Of a stretch of 64,000 nucleotides of DNA, positions 40,320 to 51,657 are shown piece by piece. The stretch's first letter is position 1; the number at the start of each line of letters is the position of its first letter. Source of the stretch: Rufibacter sp. LB8 (GTDB lineage Bacteria > Bacteroidota > Bacteroidia > Cytophagales > Hymenobacteraceae); NCBI RefSeq assembly GCF_014876185.1, contig NZ_JADALJ010000001.1, forward strand, positions 2,275,501-2,339,500, written 5' to 3'. A model generated the notes under the pieces. The model worked only from the letters and a program-made list of their open reading frames with translations. It was not told where the DNA came from and ran no database searches. The position numbers and the translations under genes are program-made.

Positions 40320-40360
40320 AAAGCTCCCCTCTCCGTGGGAGAGGGGCCGGGGGTGAGGTC
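40320..40360. repeat. CTCCCCTCTC..GAGAGGGG-GGGGGTGAGG element at a stop codon
   Basis: Hairpin CCCCTCTC-cgtggg-AGAGGGG followed by CCGGGGGTGAGG; runs directly up to the stop of the TSUP gene. Related to 38505-38545, 53887-53925, 57503-57536 and 57810-57850. Confidence 0.65.
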
Positions 40361-41250
40361 TACAACGTCTTCAGCAGAATTCTAAGGCTCCAGAGAATCA
40401 CCAGTGAGCCTACGGCGATGAACATGGTTTTCATGGGCAGTTTTCCGGCCAGGTGGGCGGCGATGGGCGCGGCAATCAGCCCGCCAATCACCAGGCCCAA
40501 AATGATGTGCAAGTGACTCAGGCCCAGCATGGCGAAGAACGTGAGCGAACTGGCCAGCGCCACAAACAACTCAGTGATGCTCACCGAACCAATCACAAAG
40601 CGGGGCGCGCGGCCCTTTGCAATCAAGGTGCTGGTTACCAGAGGCCCCCATCCGCCCCCGCCAAACGAGTCCAGGAAACCGCCGGCCCCGGCCAACAGAC
40701 CAGCCTTCTTAATCTTCTGTTTGGCTGCTTTTTTCTTCCGGAAGGCGTTGTACATAATACGGGAACCCAGAATCAAAGTATAAAACGCCAGCACCGGACG
40801 CACATAATCGCCGTACTCTTCGCCCACCACGCTTAACAGATACGCGCCCGCAATGGCCCCAAGCACGCCCGGTATGAGCAGCACCTTGAACAGCTTCTTG
40901 TTCACGTTCCCGAACTTGTAATGACTGTAGCCCGAGGCCCCGCTGGAAAACACCTCGGCGGTGTGAATGCTTCCGCTGATGGCTGGCAAATTCACGCCTA
41001 ATGACATGAGAATGGTGGTACAGGTAACGCCGTAGCCCATGCCCAAGGCACCGTCTACCATCTGCGCGGCAAACCCGGCCAGAATCATCCAGTAGAACAG
41101 GGGCTCAACATTCAGCAACAGGTTTTGGGTGCGCGCCGCCGCCTCGGCCAGCGGAAAAAAGAAAGAAACGCCGTAACCCAGCACCATCAAAAACAACGCT
41201 GCCGCGCCGCCCAGCGACATCTTTTTCCGGTGCTCGGTTTTTAAATTCAT
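40360..41250 (-). CDS. TauE/SafE (TSUP) family sulfite/sulfate-type permease
   Basis: 296 residues from ATG 41250 (MNLKTEHRKK), about eight helices. GFAAQMVDGALGMGYGVTCTTILMSLGV and GAGGFLDSFGGGGWGPLVTSTLI are the two pseudo-symmetric TSUP signatures. TSUP proteins move sulfite, sulfoacetate, thiosulfate or sulfate. Lying just downstream of cysHDN in the same direction, it is likely to handle an inorganic sulfur oxyanion (inference). A 169-base spacer with a family A palindrome separates it from cysN, so it may have its own promoter. Confidence 0.9.
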   Translation of the reverse strand: MNLKTEHRKKMSLGGAAALFLMVLGYGVSFFFPLAEAAARTQNLLLNVEPLFYWMILAGFAAQMVDGALGMGYGVTCTTILMSLGVNLPAISGSIHTAEVFSSGASGYSHYKFGNVNKKLFKVLLIPGVLGAIAGAYLLSVVGEEYGDYVRPVLAFYTLILGSRIMYNAFRKKKAAKQKIKKAGLLAGAGGFLDSFGGGGWGPLVTSTLIAKGRAPRFVIGSVSITELFVALASSLTFFAMLGLSHLHIILGLVIGGLIAAPIAAHLAGKLPMKTMFIAVGSLVILWSLRILLKTL

Positions 41251-41350
41251 AGGCCGGTGACGGTCAAGTGGCACGGGTAGCACGTTGGTATTGTCCTTTG
41301 GCTGCGCATTTTAGTTTTGCCCGAATGGTAGAGTTTGAAGGACTGAATTC

Positions 41351-41419: not shown

Positions 41420-42697
41420 TTAACTAAATGCCCAGAATTCTTCCTGTTTGGCTTCGGTGGAAATCATGCAGGCGCCTACGGTCACGTTGCTGGTTTCGTC
41501 AATCAAGATGGCGCCGCCATTGGCGCGTAGTTTCTTGTAGGAGTCAAACGCGATGGGCGAGGCAGTTTTAATCACGGCTTTCACCACGTCATTCAGGCCC
41601 GCCGAGACCGGCGACAGTTCTTTCTCCAGGGTGTTCACGTTGAGTTTGTAGTGCAGTTCTTTCACCACGGCGCGCACGGTGCGGCTGTTGATTTGGAGCA
41701 GATATTTGTTGCGCGGCAAGAGCGGCGTGTTACCCATCCAGCACAACACCACCTCAAATTCCTGGGCCACCTGCACGGGCGCGTCTTGCTTCACTATCAC
41801 ATCGCCGCGGCTAATGTCCACGTCATCTGCCAGGTGCAAGACTACGCTCTGCGGCGCGAAGGCTTCTTCCACTTCTTCGCCGCCTATTTCCACCGCCGAG
41901 ATGGTGCTTTCCACGCCCGAGGGCTGCACCACCACTTTGTCGCCTTTCTTATAGATGCCGCTGATGATTTTTCCGGCATAGCCGCGGTAATCTGGCAGTT
42001 CCTCGGTCTGCGGACGAATGACGTACTGCACCGGGAAACGGCCTTCAGAGAGGTTGATGTCTTCGTGCACTTCCACGGTTTCCAGCACGCGCAGCAAAGA
42101 CTCGCCCTCGTACCACGGCATTGCCGCAGATTTATCCACGATGTTGTCGCCGTTCAAAGCGCTGATGGGGATGAAGGTCACGTTTTTCAGGCCCAAAGAT
42201 TTGGCCACCTGCGCGTAATCAATCACGATGTCATTGTACTTGTCTTCAGAGAAGTTCACCAAATCCATCTTGTTCACGGCCACCACCACATGCGGCAGAT
42301 TGAGCAATGATACAATGATAGAATGCCTTCTGGTTTGCTCCACCACGCCGTGGCGCGCGTCAATCAAAATAATGGCCAAATCAGAGTTAGACGCGCCGGT
42401 GACCATATTGCGGGTGTACTGAATGTGCCCCGGCGTGTCTGCGATGATGAATTTGCGCTTGGGCGTAGAGAAGTATTTGTAGGCCACGTCAATGGTGATG
42501 CCCTGCTCCCGCTCAGCCCGGAGCCCGTCGGTGAGCAACGCCAAATCTACTTCGCCGGCGGCGCGGTTCTTGGTGCTGCGCTCCATGGCTTCCAACTGGT
42601 CTACCATGATGGATTTGCTGTCATATAACAGGCGGCCAATCAACGTGCTTTTGCCATCGTCTACGCTTCCGGCGGTTAAGAATCTTAGAATATCCAT
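41420..42697 (-). CDS. cysN: Sulfate adenylyltransferase subunit 1 (GTPase)
   Basis: 425 residues. Regulatory GTPase subunit of ATP sulfurylase; with CysD it makes APS from sulfate and ATP. G1 GSVDDGKST (about 11-19), switch region REQGITIDVAYKYF, DTPGH and VNKMDL are present, followed by EF-Tu-like beta-barrels. No C-terminal APS kinase domain is fused, unlike some CysNC proteins. It is the last gene of the cysH-cysD-cysN series, separated from cysD by a 331-base repeat-laden spacer. Confidence 0.95.
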   Translation of the reverse strand: MDILRFLTAGSVDDGKSTLIGRLLYDSKSIMVDQLEAMERSTKNRAAGEVDLALLTDGLRAEREQGITIDVAYKYFSTPKRKFIIADTPGHIQYTRNMVTGASNSDLAIILIDARHGVVEQTRRHSIIVSLLNLPHVVVAVNKMDLVNFSEDKYNDIVIDYAQVAKSLGLKNVTFIPISALNGDNIVDKSAAMPWYEGESLLRVLETVEVHEDINLSEGRFPVQYVIRPQTEELPDYRGYAGKIISGIYKKGDKVVVQPSGVESTISAVEIGGEEVEEAFAPQSVVLHLADDVDISRGDVIVKQDAPVQVAQEFEVVLCWMGNTPLLPRNKYLLQINSRTVRAVVKELHYKLNVNTLEKELSPVSAGLNDVVKAVIKTASPIAFDSYKKLRANGGAILIDETSNVTVGACMISTEAKQEEFWAFS

Positions 42698-43028: not shown

Positions 43029-43937
43029 TTAGAAATACCCGTTCTTCTTTCTATCCTCCATAGCGGCTTCAGAGGCGCGGTCGTCAATGCGGGTCTGGCC
43101 GCGCTCGCTGGTGTTGGTCGCGATGATTTCATTGATGATATCATCTAGGGTTGAGGCGCTGGACTCTACGGCGGCGGTGCAGGTCATGTCACCCACGGTG
43201 CGGTAACGGACTACTTTGCGGCTCACCACGTCGGTTCCGTTGAGGGTAATGAATTGGTTGGTGGCAACCAGGCGTCCTTCAAACTCCAGTACCTCGCGCT
43301 CGTGGGCGAAGTAAATGTTGGGCAGCTCAATGTTCTCGCGACGGATGTAGTTCCAGATGTCCAGTTCAGTCCAGTTGCTGATGGGGAACACGCGCACGTT
43401 TTCGCCTTTGTTGATTTTGCCATTGTAGATGTTCCAGAGCTCGGGGCGTTGCAGCTTGGGGTCCCAGGTGCCAAACTCGTCACGGACGGAGAAAATGCGT
43501 TCTTTGGCGCGGGCTTTCTCCTCGTCGCGGCGGGCACCGCCAATGCAGGCGTCAAAGGCAAACTCCTCAATGGTGTCCAGCAAGGTGTAGGTCTGCAGGC
43601 CGTTGCGGCTGGGCAGTTTGCCTTTCTGCTCGGTGAGGCCTTTGGCTTTGATGGTGTCTTCCACGTGGCGCACAATCAGTTTTTCGCCAATCTTATCTGC
43701 CAAGTAATCTCTGAAATCTAATGCTTCCTGAAAGTTATGGCCGGTGTCAACGTGCACCAGCGGGAACGGGAACTTGCCGGGCCGGAACGCTTTCAGGGCC
43801 AGGTGCACCAGCACGATAGAATCTTTTCCGCCCGAAAACAGCAGGGCCGGACGCTCAAACTGACCCGCCACTTCCCTGAAAATATGAATCGCTTCTGACT
43901 CCAGCTGATCCAGGTAATCTAATGTATAGGAACCCAT
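43029..43937 (-). CDS. cysD: Sulfate adenylyltransferase subunit 2
   Basis: 302 residues, catalytic subunit of ATP sulfurylase. PALLFSGGKDSIVLVHLALKA (SGGKDS P-loop-like PP-motif) binds ATP. PLVHVDTGHNFQEAL, GARRDEEKARAKERIFS and RVFPISNWTELDIWNYI are conserved CysD segments, and the C-terminus ends in the usual AMEDRKKNGYF. Its ATG lies 15 bases after the cysH stop, so cysH and cysD share a transcript. Confidence 0.97.
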   Translation of the reverse strand: MGSYTLDYLDQLESEAIHIFREVAGQFERPALLFSGGKDSIVLVHLALKAFRPGKFPFPLVHVDTGHNFQEALDFRDYLADKIGEKLIVRHVEDTIKAKGLTEQKGKLPSRNGLQTYTLLDTIEEFAFDACIGGARRDEEKARAKERIFSVRDEFGTWDPKLQRPELWNIYNGKINKGENVRVFPISNWTELDIWNYIRRENIELPNIYFAHEREVLEFEGRLVATNQFITLNGTDVVSRKVVRYRTVGDMTCTAAVESSASTLDDIINEIIATNTSERGQTRIDDRASEAAMEDRKKNGYF

Positions 43938-43952
43938 AATCGGTACTTCTGT

Positions 43953-44705
43953 CTAATCAATCTTCGCTAATGAATTGGCCACGCCTGGCTTTTCCGTTAC
44001 GTGCAACCCACATTCTTTCTTGCTGCTGTCTTCCCACCACCAGCGGCCGGCCCTGAAATCTTCGCCCGGCTGAATGGCCCGCGTGCACGGCGCGCACCCA
44101 ATGCTGATGAAGCCTTTGTCATGCAGCGAGTTGTAAGGAATGTTGTTTTGTTTGATGAAGGCCATCACCTCGTCGGTAGACCAATGCAGGAGCGGGTGGA
44201 ACTTGATGAGTTGGTTTCCTTCGTCCCACTCAAACTGGGGCAAATCTCCCCGGCCTGGCGAATGCTCGGCGCGTAAACCCGTGACCCAGATAGAATTCCC
44301 GGCCAGTGCGCGTCTCAACGGCTCTACTTTTCTGATGTGGCAGCAGTCTTTCCGGTTCTGGGTAGATTCATAGAAGGAGTTGGGGCCAGTGGCCTGCACA
44401 AATTCCTCCAGGCTCTCATGATTGGGGTAATAGGCCTTGATGCGCGTGTGGTAGGCCGCATTGGTTTTGCTCCAAACGCTGTAGGTTTCGGGGAAAAGGC
44501 GGCCGGTGTCTAGCGTGAAAATAGAGATGGGCAGCTGGTTTTCCAGAATCTGGTGCGAGATGACCTGGTCCTCAAAACTGAAACTAGAGGAAAACGTCAC
44601 CGCGCCCGGGAACCGACCAGCCAGCAAGGCAAGGGTTTGGTCTATGGGTAAGCCTGCTGTTTCCTGAATAAGGAGAGACACCAGCTTTTGGGTAGAAGAG
44701 GCCAT
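43953..44705 (-). CDS. cysH: APS/PAPS reductase (thioredoxin-dependent, iron-sulfur type)
   Basis: 250 residues. VTFSSSFSFEDQVISH is the PAPS-reductase PP-loop. KDCCHIRKVEPLRRAL and SIGCAPCTRAIQPGEDFRAGRWWWE supply the Cys-Cys and Cys-x-x-Cys that hold a [4Fe-4S] cluster in the APS-reducing branch. The C-terminal KKECGLH carries the catalytic cysteine. No APS kinase gene is seen nearby, fitting direct APS reduction to sulfite. It is the first gene of the operon, preceded by a leader with a poly-cysteine ORF 73 bases upstream. Confidence 0.95.
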   Translation of the reverse strand: MASSTQKLVSLLIQETAGLPIDQTLALLAGRFPGAVTFSSSFSFEDQVISHQILENQLPISIFTLDTGRLFPETYSVWSKTNAAYHTRIKAYYPNHESLEEFVQATGPNSFYESTQNRKDCCHIRKVEPLRRALAGNSIWVTGLRAEHSPGRGDLPQFEWDEGNQLIKFHPLLHWSTDEVMAFIKQNNIPYNSLHDKGFISIGCAPCTRAIQPGEDFRAGRWWWEDSSKKECGLHVTEKPGVANSLAKID

Positions 44706-44778
44706 TGCAAGAAAATACTGGTAAAGAAATTAAAATTGGGTTGCCGCCTGGGCAAAGGGACTTTGTTGAAGCCGAGGG

Positions 44779-44847
44779 TTAGCAACAACAGCAGCCAGAG
44801 CTGCAACAACAGAAGCGCATTCGCTTTGTGTGAGAAGAGTAGACCAT
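44779..44847 (-). CDS. Poly-cysteine leader peptide of the cysHDN operon (candidate attenuator)
   Basis: A 22-codon ORF in the leader of cysH. It begins MVYSSHTKR and continues MRFCCCSSGCCCC before TAA, so 7 of the last 10 codons are Cys (TGT TGT TGC, then TGC TGT TGT TGC, separated by Ser-Ser-Gly). An internal ATG at 44820 would give the 13-residue form alone; it sits in the loop of an AAGCG/CGCTT hairpin. The Cys run can form GCAGC-tctg-GCTGC. Alternatively its TCTGGCTG can pair with CAGCCAGA 40-50 bases upstream, and TGTTG with CAACA just downstream. Ribosome stalling at Cys codons when Cys-tRNA is scarce would switch these pairings. Position, codons and promoter are seen; regulation is inferred. 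Confidence 0.75.
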   Translation of the reverse strand: MVYSSHTKRMRFCCCSSGCCCC

Positions 44848-44880
44848 GTAGTCTTGTTCTGGCTGTTAAGATAAGATGAC

Positions 44881-44911
44881 GCAAATATAGAAACCGAATT
44901 TTATAAATCAA
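44881..44911 (-). promoter_or_regulatory. Promoter of the cysHDN leader transcript
   Basis: Minus strand: TTG at 44911-44909, 19-base spacer, TATATTTG ending at 44882, with C next. Spacing is identical to the tRNA-Gln promoter. Transcription would start near 44875, about 28 bases before the leader ORF and 170 bases before cysH. Confidence 0.75.
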
Positions 44912-45029
44912 GTTTTCCTATCAATTTAGTAGAGTTTTGTTTATGAAAATTAAATAACCCAAACATTATTTATGTGTATAAATTTTAACAATAGCATTGC
45001 AAGGTTAACGTATTTTCAATAGCTGTGTT

Positions 45030-50140: not shown

Positions 50141-50230
50141 CAACGGGAATGTCTCTGCCGCAATAAGCCCAACTTCAAGGGGAAGCTGCGAAGACAGATT
50201 TATGGATAAGTGTACCGGCATTGCTACGTA

Positions 50231-50263
50231 GAACCACGTCGTGTCAGTGCCACAACGCTACAT
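50231..50263 (-). repeat. Family C palindrome (diverged)
   Basis: Minus strand: TGTAGCGTTGTGGCACTGAC then ACGACGTGGTTC. Confidence 0.55.
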
Positions 50264-50264
50264 T

Positions 50265-50305
50265 TCCGTTTTCGGGCTCGTTTTCAGAAATGAAGCCAAA
50301 AACGG
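50265..50305. repeat. Family A palindrome before the LRR-kinase gene
   Basis: CCGTTTTCGGGCTCGTTT and GAAATGAAGCCAAAAACGG. Confidence 0.75.
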
Positions 50306-50315
50306 CCAAACGCAT

Positions 50316-50323
50316 TACCTTTG
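50316..50323 (+). promoter_or_regulatory. -7 element of the LRR-kinase gene
   Basis: TACCTTTG, 17 bases before ATG 50341; it excludes the longer frame starting at 50221. Confidence 0.6.
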
Positions 50324-50340
50324 CGGTTCAACCCAAGCCC

Positions 50341-51657
50341 ATGCACACGCTTCCGCAACTCACTTCCGGCGAACTCAAAGGCACTAAAAGCCTCAAACTT
50401 TCGGGCGGTCTCACCCAGTTCCCGCTGGAGATTCTGGACTTAGCAGACACTCTGGAAATTCTGGATTTGTCTGGCAACCAACTCACCCATTTGCCAGAGG
50501 AATTCGCGCAGCTGCAGCACCTGAAAATCGCGTTCTTCTCAGAGAATCCCTTTACTGAGTTTCCGGCGGTGTTGGCGCAATGCCCAAAGTTGGAGATGAT
50601 CGGGTTCAAGGCGTGTCGGCTGCAAACGGTTCCAGAAAATGCTATTCCCAAAACCACGCGCTGGCTTATTCTCACCGACAACCAGATTACCCAATTGCCG
50701 ACTTCTATTAGCCTTTGCACCAACATGCAGAAACTGATGTTGGCGGGCAATAGATTGACAGAACTACCGCCGGAAATGGCCGCGCTGCAAAACCTGGAAT
50801 TGCTACGGATCTCCGCCAATAATTTGACAGAATTACCCGAATGGCTGTTCAGGTTGCCGCGTCTTTCCTGGTTGGCCTTCTCAGGAAATCCTTGCCAGGC
50901 GAAGCGGCTAACCCAACCGCAGTTACAGGAAATTCCGTGGGCAGAGTTGGAAGTACGTTCTGTTCTGGGCGAAGGCGCCTCGGGGTTGATTTCTTTGGCC
51001 ACCTGGCGCAGAAACGGGCAAGCGCCGGAGCAAGTGGCCGTGAAAGTGTTCAAAGGCGCCGTAACCAGCGACGGGTTGCCGCAAGACGAAATGGAGGCGA
51101 GCGTGGCCGCCGGACAGCATTCAAATCTGGTGCAAGTGCTGGGCAAAATCACAGGGCATCCAGCGCAGAAACAAGGCTTGGTGCTGGCGTTGATTCCGGC
51201 TGGTTACAAAATTTTGGGAAACCCGCCCACCTTTGAAACCTGCACGCGTGATACGTTTCCGGCTGCAACGTCCTTCAGTTTGAAGGAAATTATCCAGATA
51301 GTCACTGGCATTGCCTCTGTGGCCGCACATTTGCACCAACGTGGCCTTCTGCACGGCGATTTGTACGCCCACAACACCTTGATCAATGAATCGGCACACC
51401 CGTTGCTAAGTGATTTCGGCGCAGCCACCGTGTATGGCACAGCAGAAACCTACGCCGCGGCGCTGGAGAAACTGGAAGTGCGGGCGTTTGGCTGTCTGCT
51501 GGAAGATGTATTAAATCACGGTTCATCAGCGCCAGCAGAAACCTTGGCTTGGCAGCAGTTGCAGGCGTTGATGCAAGATTGCCTGCAACCAGAAGTTCAC
51601 CAGCGGCCTACGTTTGATTCCGTGGTAAATAGGGTTCAGAAATTAGCGCAAAATTGA
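50341..51657 (+). CDS. Leucine-rich-repeat protein with C-terminal kinase-like domain
   Basis: 438 residues from ATG 50341 (MHTLPQLTSG); 40 upstream codons are repeat DNA. Six to seven LRRs occupy about 20-185 (LEILDLSGNQLTHLPEEF, MQKLMLAGNRLTELPPEM, LELLRISANNLTELPEWL). A kinase-like domain follows: glycine loop LGEGASGLI, VAVKVFKG with the lysine, catalytic loop LLHGDLYAHNTLI (HGDLxxxN in place of HRDLKxxN) and DFG in LLSDFGAATV. The lysine of the catalytic loop is absent but the Asp and Asn remain, so activity is plausible. Cytoplasmic (no signal peptide). Targets unknown. Confidence 0.85.
   Translation: MHTLPQLTSGELKGTKSLKLSGGLTQFPLEILDLADTLEILDLSGNQLTHLPEEFAQLQHLKIAFFSENPFTEFPAVLAQCPKLEMIGFKACRLQTVPENAIPKTTRWLILTDNQITQLPTSISLCTNMQKLMLAGNRLTELPPEMAALQNLELLRISANNLTELPEWLFRLPRLSWLAFSGNPCQAKRLTQPQLQEIPWAELEVRSVLGEGASGLISLATWRRNGQAPEQVAVKVFKGAVTSDGLPQDEMEASVAAGQHSNLVQVLGKITGHPAQKQGLVLALIPAGYKILGNPPTFETCTRDTFPAATSFSLKEIIQIVTGIASVAAHLHQRGLLHGDLYAHNTLINESAHPLLSDFGAATVYGTAETYAAALEKLEVRAFGCLLEDVLNHGSSAPAETLAWQQLQALMQDCLQPEVHQRPTFDSVVNRVQKLAQN

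Follow-up and report, generated by a model that had tools for sequence, protein, structure and literature searches.

A poly-cysteine leader ORF ahead of cysHDN in Rufibacter sp. LB8: a probable cysteine-sensing leader peptide, with similar leaders before other sulfur and cysteine genes of Bacteroidota

Little is known, as far as we are aware, about how Bacteroidota control sulfate assimilation, and the locus described here raises the question of what a very short, cysteine-ended open reading frame (ORF) does directly ahead of the cysHDN genes. If it is a regulatory leader, it gives a rule for cultured species. The window, that is, the whole stretch of 64,000 nucleotides of Rufibacter sp. LB8 DNA that was analysed, carries the following features at this place:

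40360..41283, minus strand: TauE/SafE-type permease (PF01925, 121 bits)
41420..42697, minus strand: cysN, sulfate adenylyltransferase large subunit (TIGR02034, above cut-off)
43029..43937, minus strand: cysD, sulfate adenylyltransferase small subunit (TIGR02039, above cut-off)
43953..44705, minus strand: cysH, APS/PAPS reductase (TIGR02055, 242 bits, and PRK02090, 257 bits, both above cut-off)
44779..44847, minus strand: leader ORF MVYSSHTKRMRFCCCSSGCCCC, followed by its stop (direct reading; kept in the 14/14 genus genomes that bear cysH)
44882..44911, minus strand: promoter of the Bacteroidota type, TTG-N19-TATATTTG (direct reading, about 180 nt 5' of cysH)

Strand and gene order make the permease a possible last gene of the operon. 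The CysH protein (43953-44705) shares 71% identity with that of locus L114, from another family (f5), and just 57-61% with six CysH from other genera of its own family; being nearer to the former than to its own family, it suggests horizontal transfer of the gene. Elsewhere in the window (50221-51657), a protein gives matches, each below the model's cut-off, to models of leucine-rich repeats and, at the end of the protein, of kinases.

The original prediction had placed before cysH a 22-codon ORF whose final ten codons read CCC-SSG-CCCC, its stop 73 nt from the cysH ATG (44705), and this is confirmed, with the minus strand as the coding one (44847..44779). Seven Cys codons stand just before the stop, most genus relatives having eight. 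The ORF matched no family of Pfam or NCBIfam at E values up to 10, and the sole Rfam match at gathering thresholds in the whole window is a tRNA (915-987). With Cys as frequent as it is in five genes of the window (0.57%), at least seven Cys in ten codons would have a probability of about 2e-14, by a crude model applied to an ORF chosen post hoc; conservation is the better evidence for the leader ORF. The promoter claimed for this place was found as well (44911-44882), called by what we take to be the consensus of the phylum, and its -7 element, TAnnTTTG, is present in 14/14 genus rows. The leader start codon (44847) is 35 nt past the -7 element (44882) of this predicted promoter, and the ORF is for that reason probably not leaderless. 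The mycobacterial Cys leader ORF (Canestrari 2020) is said, going by the title of that work, to be leaderless and experimentally tested, whereas the window leader is known from sequence alone.

Within Rufibacter, cysH occurs in 14 of the 16 genomes searched, and every one of these 14 has the leader, with start, frame and stop kept. The genus form is MV[YF][STP]S[HY][IT][KEM]RMRFCCCS[STP][CG]CCCC, best conserved from RMRF through the Cys run, and third codon positions are nearly invariant (14 rows). The 13 other leaders end in CCCS[STP]CCCC[CFLR], the last residue being counted in or after the run, and in the window leader, which ends CCCSSGCCCC, Gly stands where the second run of the others has its first Cys; that of R. 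ruber is identical to the leader of genome G011. The pattern ATGMGNTTYTGYTGYTG, sought in 120 family genomes, matched 26, with cysH leaders in only the 14 genus genomes; its remaining matches look like chance.

Across the family, 50 cysH upstream regions were read of 83 cysH places (14 of the genus, 36 of other genera), taking as a leader any ORF of up to 70 aa with at least 4 Cys among the last 20 residues. A Cys-rich end of this kind was found in 28/36 upstream regions of the other genera, or 42/50 including Rufibacter, as compared with 81/2000 (4%) in a Markov null and 1/50 on the reverse strand. Conservation of the Cys codons in relatives, on which the original prediction had staked itself, was thus borne out in the genus and in the family sample. 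Different genera share little except the Cys-rich end (MQTYNITSATRMASSGTATASVAFVPTSALLQQNCCCCCCMC in genus g3, MRCSTNLRFTTTSLAALQHGCCCMCCPCRMCTGAMRSC, MNLTATPRATSAAPQPSLFGSNSLCCCCMPMRRACC), and many family leaders also have Met codons near it. In 11 g3 leaders, 49 TGT and 33 TGC codons are mixed inside alignment columns, which argues for selection on the amino acid. The gap between leader stop and cysH measures at least 73 nt in Rufibacter and roughly 100-290 nt in other family genera. Among the misses, L065 has a leader within an ORF made overlong by an upstream start, L080 has 3 Cys, and the frame of L071 is shifted relative to L057; L076, L086 and L089 are without a SAM-I riboswitch, another gene seeming to precede cysH, and L090 and L091 have a divergent CysH. 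Both g4 loci with divergent cysH (2/2) are among these misses.

The minimum number of Cys varied among scans: 4 within the final 12 residues for the named loci and the phylum sample, 5 in the last 20 for a strict scan, 4 in the last 20 for family cysH and for metY and cysS with a null, 3 in all for the desulfurase and 3 in the last 20-22 for the SAM-I spacing scan and additional metY loci; the nulls quoted cover the named-locus cysH, family cysH, and first metY and cysS scans. Among 80 named loci, 79 of them long enough, a leader-like ORF lies up to 900 nt from cysH in 9/79 (null 41/3950; reverse strand 0/79): that of R. ruber, seven at up to 210 nt, and one, probably due to chance, at 800 nt. 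Six of those seven are titled Chitinophagales, Chitinophagaceae or Sediminibacterium, and one "Bacteroidetes bacterium". Most of the 79, including Flavobacterium, Pedobacter, Mucilaginibacter, Chryseobacterium and Algoriphagus, have no leader directly 5' of cysH. The strict scan, on the cysH strand outside long ORFs of the 80 loci (up to 8.7 kb each), matched 8 loci, and in 7 the match lies 5' of cysH; it recovered a Hymenobacter leader (L241) missed at 4 Cys in the last 12, and Hymenobacter nivis (L237) was missed by both scans.

Wider sampling of the phylum covered 296 genomes, 120 with cysH, of which 70 upstream regions were scanned, with no null (the 30 best-scoring and 40 hand-chosen). 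Ten matched, six clearly (L114, L133, L134, L140, L144, L157) and two possibly (L092, L093), while L111 and L161 were judged chance. The pattern (TGY)5TAR matched 62 of 395 class genomes, its reversed control giving about 33 by hand count; 30 loci were read, five of them preceding cysH, cysS (two), metY or a desulfurase and one a dioxygenase-like gene, and the remainder mostly look like chance. Two further poly-Cys ORFs were seen. In L192 (Mucilaginibacter), one ending SFRYCCCCCCC lies 3157 nt past the start of the cysH match and 62 nt before the next gene; the genes behind it look porin-like and then binding-protein-like, and may serve sulfate uptake. In L265 (genus g6), one ending VPTASCCCCC stands 249 nt 5' of a RimK-like ATP-grasp ligase (TIGR00768, below cut-off).

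In the relatives the leader is mostly joined to a riboswitch. SAM-I (S-box, RF00162) lies upstream in 31/36 non-Rufibacter cysH loci of the family, and at 0/14 Rufibacter cysH loci (the window and 13 more). In 30/31 of them, 5-12 nt (mostly 9) separate the last base of the aptamer from the start of the leader, the 31st being the frame-shifted L071; since this gap leaves no space for a terminator, the aptamer would act on leader translation. Outside the family, SAM-I was found at 3/7 leader-bearing cysH loci tested. By eye, a hairpin and U-run lie between aptamer and leader in two of the three, L114 and L176, so that the SAM-I and leader controls of these two look serial, and the Hymenobacter leader of L241 has no SAM-I match. 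The riboswitch was also found at 16/16 metY loci given to Rfam, and at 0/4 such cysS leader loci.

The same kind of leader recurs before other genes. At metY, where 50/56 places were read, it was found in 23/30 (null 23/600, reverse 0/30) and, at the looser 3-Cys cut and with no null, in 20/20 additional loci of Rufibacter and g3. The genome of the window is itself an example (L366, G000:C1:555859-556500), with SAM-I, a Cys-ended leader MENTHTPTSDKYKSLPRVAQHGYTLSFCATLETRMPMTGICCCCR 9 nt behind it, and then metY. In several metY leaders (L336, L337, L339-L341, L353, L356) the Cys run is directly preceded by a Met/Arg stretch, RMR[ML] or the like, comparable to the RMRF of the window leader and the MRM of genus g17; such a stretch is a possible extra signal. 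At cysS of family f5 (30/57 places read), leaders mostly with four to seven Cys precede 9/30 genes, L329 being doubtful (null 8/600, reverse 0/30), and 21/30 loci have none. Also in the genome of the window (L266/L276, G000:C1 about 2832564-2832602, minus strand), a poly-Cys ORF MTRFCFTCCCCC ends 4 nt 5' of a NifS/IscS-like cysteine desulfurase, whose best model scores 392 bits, below its cut-off. Of 45 desulfurase places, 30 were read: a Cys-rich ORF precedes the gene in 9/9 Rufibacter genomes, the gap ranging from 4 nt in the genome of the window to about 13 nt; 8/9 g3 loci have an MCCC-type ORF with three or more early Cys, and a strong hairpin and U-run follow in 9/9; and a leader was seen in 0/12 loci of g2, g4 and g5. 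In several g3 rows the MCCC-type ORF seems to share bases with the stop codon of the gene before it (TAATG); the g3 loci concerned are L285, L287-L289, L291-L294 and L296. The g3 hairpin may be a true terminator with cysteine-dependent read-through. A desulfurase uses cysteine up, and its leader may regulate in the opposite sense. Finally, 6/51 genomes of g17 carry the dioxygenase-like gene, which has no NCBIfam match; MRMCCCCCC-type leaders precede it in 3/6, the Cys run being within a longer ORF in the other 3. We take this gene to be PhyH-like, and g17, at a guess, to be Flavobacterium; g3 and g6 might, likewise at a guess, be Pontibacter and Hymenobacter.

As to how translation of such an ORF could be read by the transcript, the original prediction had proposed that the Cys codons pair in three ways and that a hairpin precedes cysH. 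The segments involved are these:

44858..44867, minus strand: 5' leader segment AACAGCCAGA, pairing with Cys-codon sequence (conserved; one row has GACAG)
44764..44768, minus strand: CAACA, within the 3' arm of a hairpin that includes the final Cys codons and the stop (consensus fold)
44741..44756, minus strand: weak hairpin TTTGCCCAGGCGGCAA before cysH (TTGCC-GGCAA; GCC/GGC; 87.5% of cells paired)

In the window, CAGCCAGA (44865-44858) faces TCTGGCTG inside the ORF, GCAGC faces GCTGC, and CAACA is present downstream; the Gly codon further allows the alternative pairing CAGCCAGA/UCUGGCUG. The genus consensus fold, with 97.1% of cells paired overall, consists of helix 1 (AACAGnCAGA and the first Cys codons), helix 2 (GCAGC and GCUGC, between both Cys runs) and helix 3 (the last Cys codons and stop with AGCAnUCAACA); the helix between the AACAGCCAGA segment and the first Cys codons has 100% of its cells paired across 14 sequences, and 6/9 of its pairs are invariant. 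As modelled, the three helices would hold the Cys codons of the Rufibacter leader RNA and would have to be disrupted by a ribosome. Covariation in this fold is thin because most pairs are invariant. One column pair has both sides changed in three rows (last codon Phe, Phe and Leu) with pairing kept, which 367/500 shuffles also reach and several slid structures exceed; the covariation score is matched by 15/500 shuffles and the percentage paired by 5/500. Pairing of the Cys codons with downstream sequence has a mean z of -1.6 in Rufibacter cysH (the window's own is equalled by 23/100 shuffles), of -0.5 to -0.8 in cysS, cysH outside the family and g1 metY, and is at chance (0.2 to -0.2) in g3 and g6 cysH and g3 and g4 metY. 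No RNA structure common to the whole family emerged when leaders of several genera were compared. The proposed pairing thus stands as far as segments conserved in Rufibacter go, and weakens in its covariation and in other genera.

The hairpin near cysH exists, but is not supported as a terminator: it is weak, no U run lies directly 3' of it, and in a scan of the last 75 nt before cysH 0/14 Rufibacter leaders pass as intrinsic terminators (shuffled 0/70). The same scan passed 1/20 metY (shuffled 2/100), 0/9 cysS and 0/7 cysH leaders outside the family; at the g3 desulfurase it found 3/9 terminators (shuffled 3/45), perhaps owing to its window steps, against the 9/9 of the alignment. A looser rule, with no shuffled control, finds terminator-like hairpins at varying places in 8/19 cysH leaders of other genera. 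The sequence 3' of the Rufibacter leader has a (C-G)/(C+G) skew of 0.45 with 11% G, and this C-rich, G-poor stretch is compatible with Rho action without proving it. Beyond Rufibacter the Rho-like skew is weak (0.12 to 0.22), g3 cysH having 0.12, barely above the 0.10 further upstream.

Because the Cys codons are conserved, and recur across many genera ahead of several genes for sulfur or cysteine metabolism, a cysteine-sensing leader is by far the best reading, as had been proposed. At the level of sequence comparison, the data show that Cys identity is under selection and that the association with sulfur and cysteine genes is repeated, and the combined evidence strongly supports a putative cis-acting sensor of cysteine codons. 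The window ORF is very probably a cis-acting regulatory leader peptide that senses Cys-tRNA for cysHDN, not a functional small protein. Ribosomes on the leader would pass seven Cys codons right before the stop, so that their progress would report the supply of Cys-tRNA and set the expression of the cysHDN transcript that follows. At low Cys-tRNA the ribosome would pause at the Cys codons and cysHDN would go up; with enough cysteine it would terminate, and either the roughly 75 nt before cysH, rich in C and poor in G, would let Rho terminate transcription or cysH would be left poorly translated. Rho-dependent or translational control is preferred here over an intrinsic terminator, because the Rufibacter leaders show no terminator and the family no common structure.

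The question of output bears directly on a classical trp-type attenuator, in which a ribosome paused on the Cys codons would tip the RNA towards an antiterminator and away from an intrinsic terminator ahead of cysH. The alternative pairings of Rufibacter, the uncontrolled loose-rule hairpins of other genera and the MCCC-type ORF with its hairpin and U-run at the g3 desulfurase speak for such a device, but the scan counts at cysH, metY and cysS speak against it, and we consider it improbable at the window. Translational coupling, by which the leader alters ribosome access to the next gene without any transcription step, is rather unlikely but a more substantial candidate: it would suit the Rufibacter desulfurase, with its few nucleotides between leader and gene, and the cysH gap, in Rufibacter and even more so in other genera, is too far for simple reinitiation.

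Two further explanations take the ORF out of regulation by codon sensing altogether. Seven or eight Cys per 22 residues could bind Cu or Zn, and the peptide could then act in trans, as a metal-binding or thiol microprotein, for which the RMRF kept before the Cys run could also be adduced. Nonetheless, the genera share little past the Cys-rich end, the ORFs precede cysteine and sulfur genes far above shuffled controls, the last Cys is replaced by F or L in three rows with RNA pairing retained, and protein family searches gave nothing, all of which leaves an active peptide very improbable. The nearly invariant third codon positions, from RMRF through the Cys run, would also be expected of a chance ORF within sequence constrained for some other RNA structure; set against the family-wide Cys enrichment, the mixing of TGC and TGT and the presence of the same device at other genes, this is scarcely credible.

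Returning to the cysteine-sensing leader, its joining to SAM-I suggests a broader reading that we hold tentatively, at slightly below an even chance. A wide Bacteroidota regulon based on Cys (and Met) codons would have, as its commonest form in this family, a leader ORF serving as the expression platform of SAM-I, the operon being on only if both SAM and cysteine are scarce; Rufibacter cysH would be a derived form that lost the aptamer and kept the cysteine input. The 3' strand of the aptamer's P1 helix, rich in A and U, would lie 5-12 nt before the leader start, so that SAM would set whether the leader is translated, and Cys-tRNA would then set how far its translation goes. If true, a riboswitch can work via translation of a regulatory peptide, coupling a metabolite sensor to a sensor of tRNA charging.

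Known systems resemble this arrangement in parts. As in trp/his-type attenuators, a short Cys-rich ORF with predicted translation lies 5' of biosynthetic genes and is conserved before cysH; an intrinsic terminator set against an antiterminator was found in 0/14 leaders, and conserved alternative pairing in the genus only. Cys leaders have been predicted in Actinobacteria, at cys and cbs operons (Seliverstov 2005; PMC1262725, excerpt): there, as in the window, a short ORF ahead of a cys operon carries a run of Cys codons close to its stop, with no obvious terminator in the excerpted text. Unlike these, and likened to them by description, the Bacteroidota case belongs to another phylum and is joined to SAM-I in relatives. 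Mycobacterial Cys-leader work is cited in the excerpt of PMC13236596 (Canestrari 2020). The uORFC-8-2 motif, a cysS leader of Rhodobacterales, is described in part of PMC8632094 as having a conserved tandem pair of Cys codons together with two stems, and as ending in a U-run; it shares with f5 cysS the Cys codons in the leader of a cysteine gene, but f5 leaders have more Cys and 0/9 pass the terminator scan, and the window leader has seven Cys codons and no U-run terminator. SAM-I itself is absent at the window cysH and present in relatives, where the leader ORF replaces the usual expression platform. S-boxes are noted in Bacteroidetes/Chlorobi in the excerpt of PMC2211319, and according to that of PMC7270179 the Xanthomonas SAM-I also responds to uncharged initiator tRNA, so that there too a single leader RNA reads SAM and a tRNA charging state, although the RNA senses the tRNA there and a translated Cys leader would do so here.

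Leader peptides have otherwise been described unevenly. The excerpted text of PMC2965389 (2010) states that, ermC aside, its own case in Firmicutes was the first leader-peptide system its authors knew of beyond Proteobacteria and Actinobacteria; that of PMC9723704 gives leader-peptide clues before Flavobacterium psychrophilum amino-acid operons, with cysteine not named in it, and that of PMC7366714 B. thetaiotaomicron sORFs reminiscent of leader peptides. Among the top-listed open-access papers, supplements excluded, none deals with a Cys leader in Bacteroidota or with SAM-I plus a Cys leader, in agreement with the earlier statement that no such element had been described in the phylum. With Cys leaders known in Actinobacteria and Rhodobacterales, this points to a way of cysteine sensing so far unreported in Bacteroidota. 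The recurrent leader predicts more members of a sulfur regulon, and leader-peptide control is possible where terminator searches fail.

One more element lies upstream of the predicted promoter:

44917..44932, minus strand: dyad CTACTAAATTGATAGG, candidate regulator site just upstream of the -33 TTG

In the form CTA[CT]TAA[AT][CT]TGATAG it is present upstream of the promoter in 14/14 genus cysH loci, and its type is also found in 5/6 g17 loci (L388-L392, CTAYTAAWTTGATAG-like), that is, in two distant genera; across both strands of the 3.19 Mb of locus sequence, with repeated loci counted each time, the type has 39 matches. A dyad regulon was not found in the genome of the window, which has one exact site and, at up to 2 mismatches, 10 sites vs 9 in a reversed control. 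By eye, a variant of the dyad (CTACTAAACAGGTAG) precedes the poly-Cys leader of L192.
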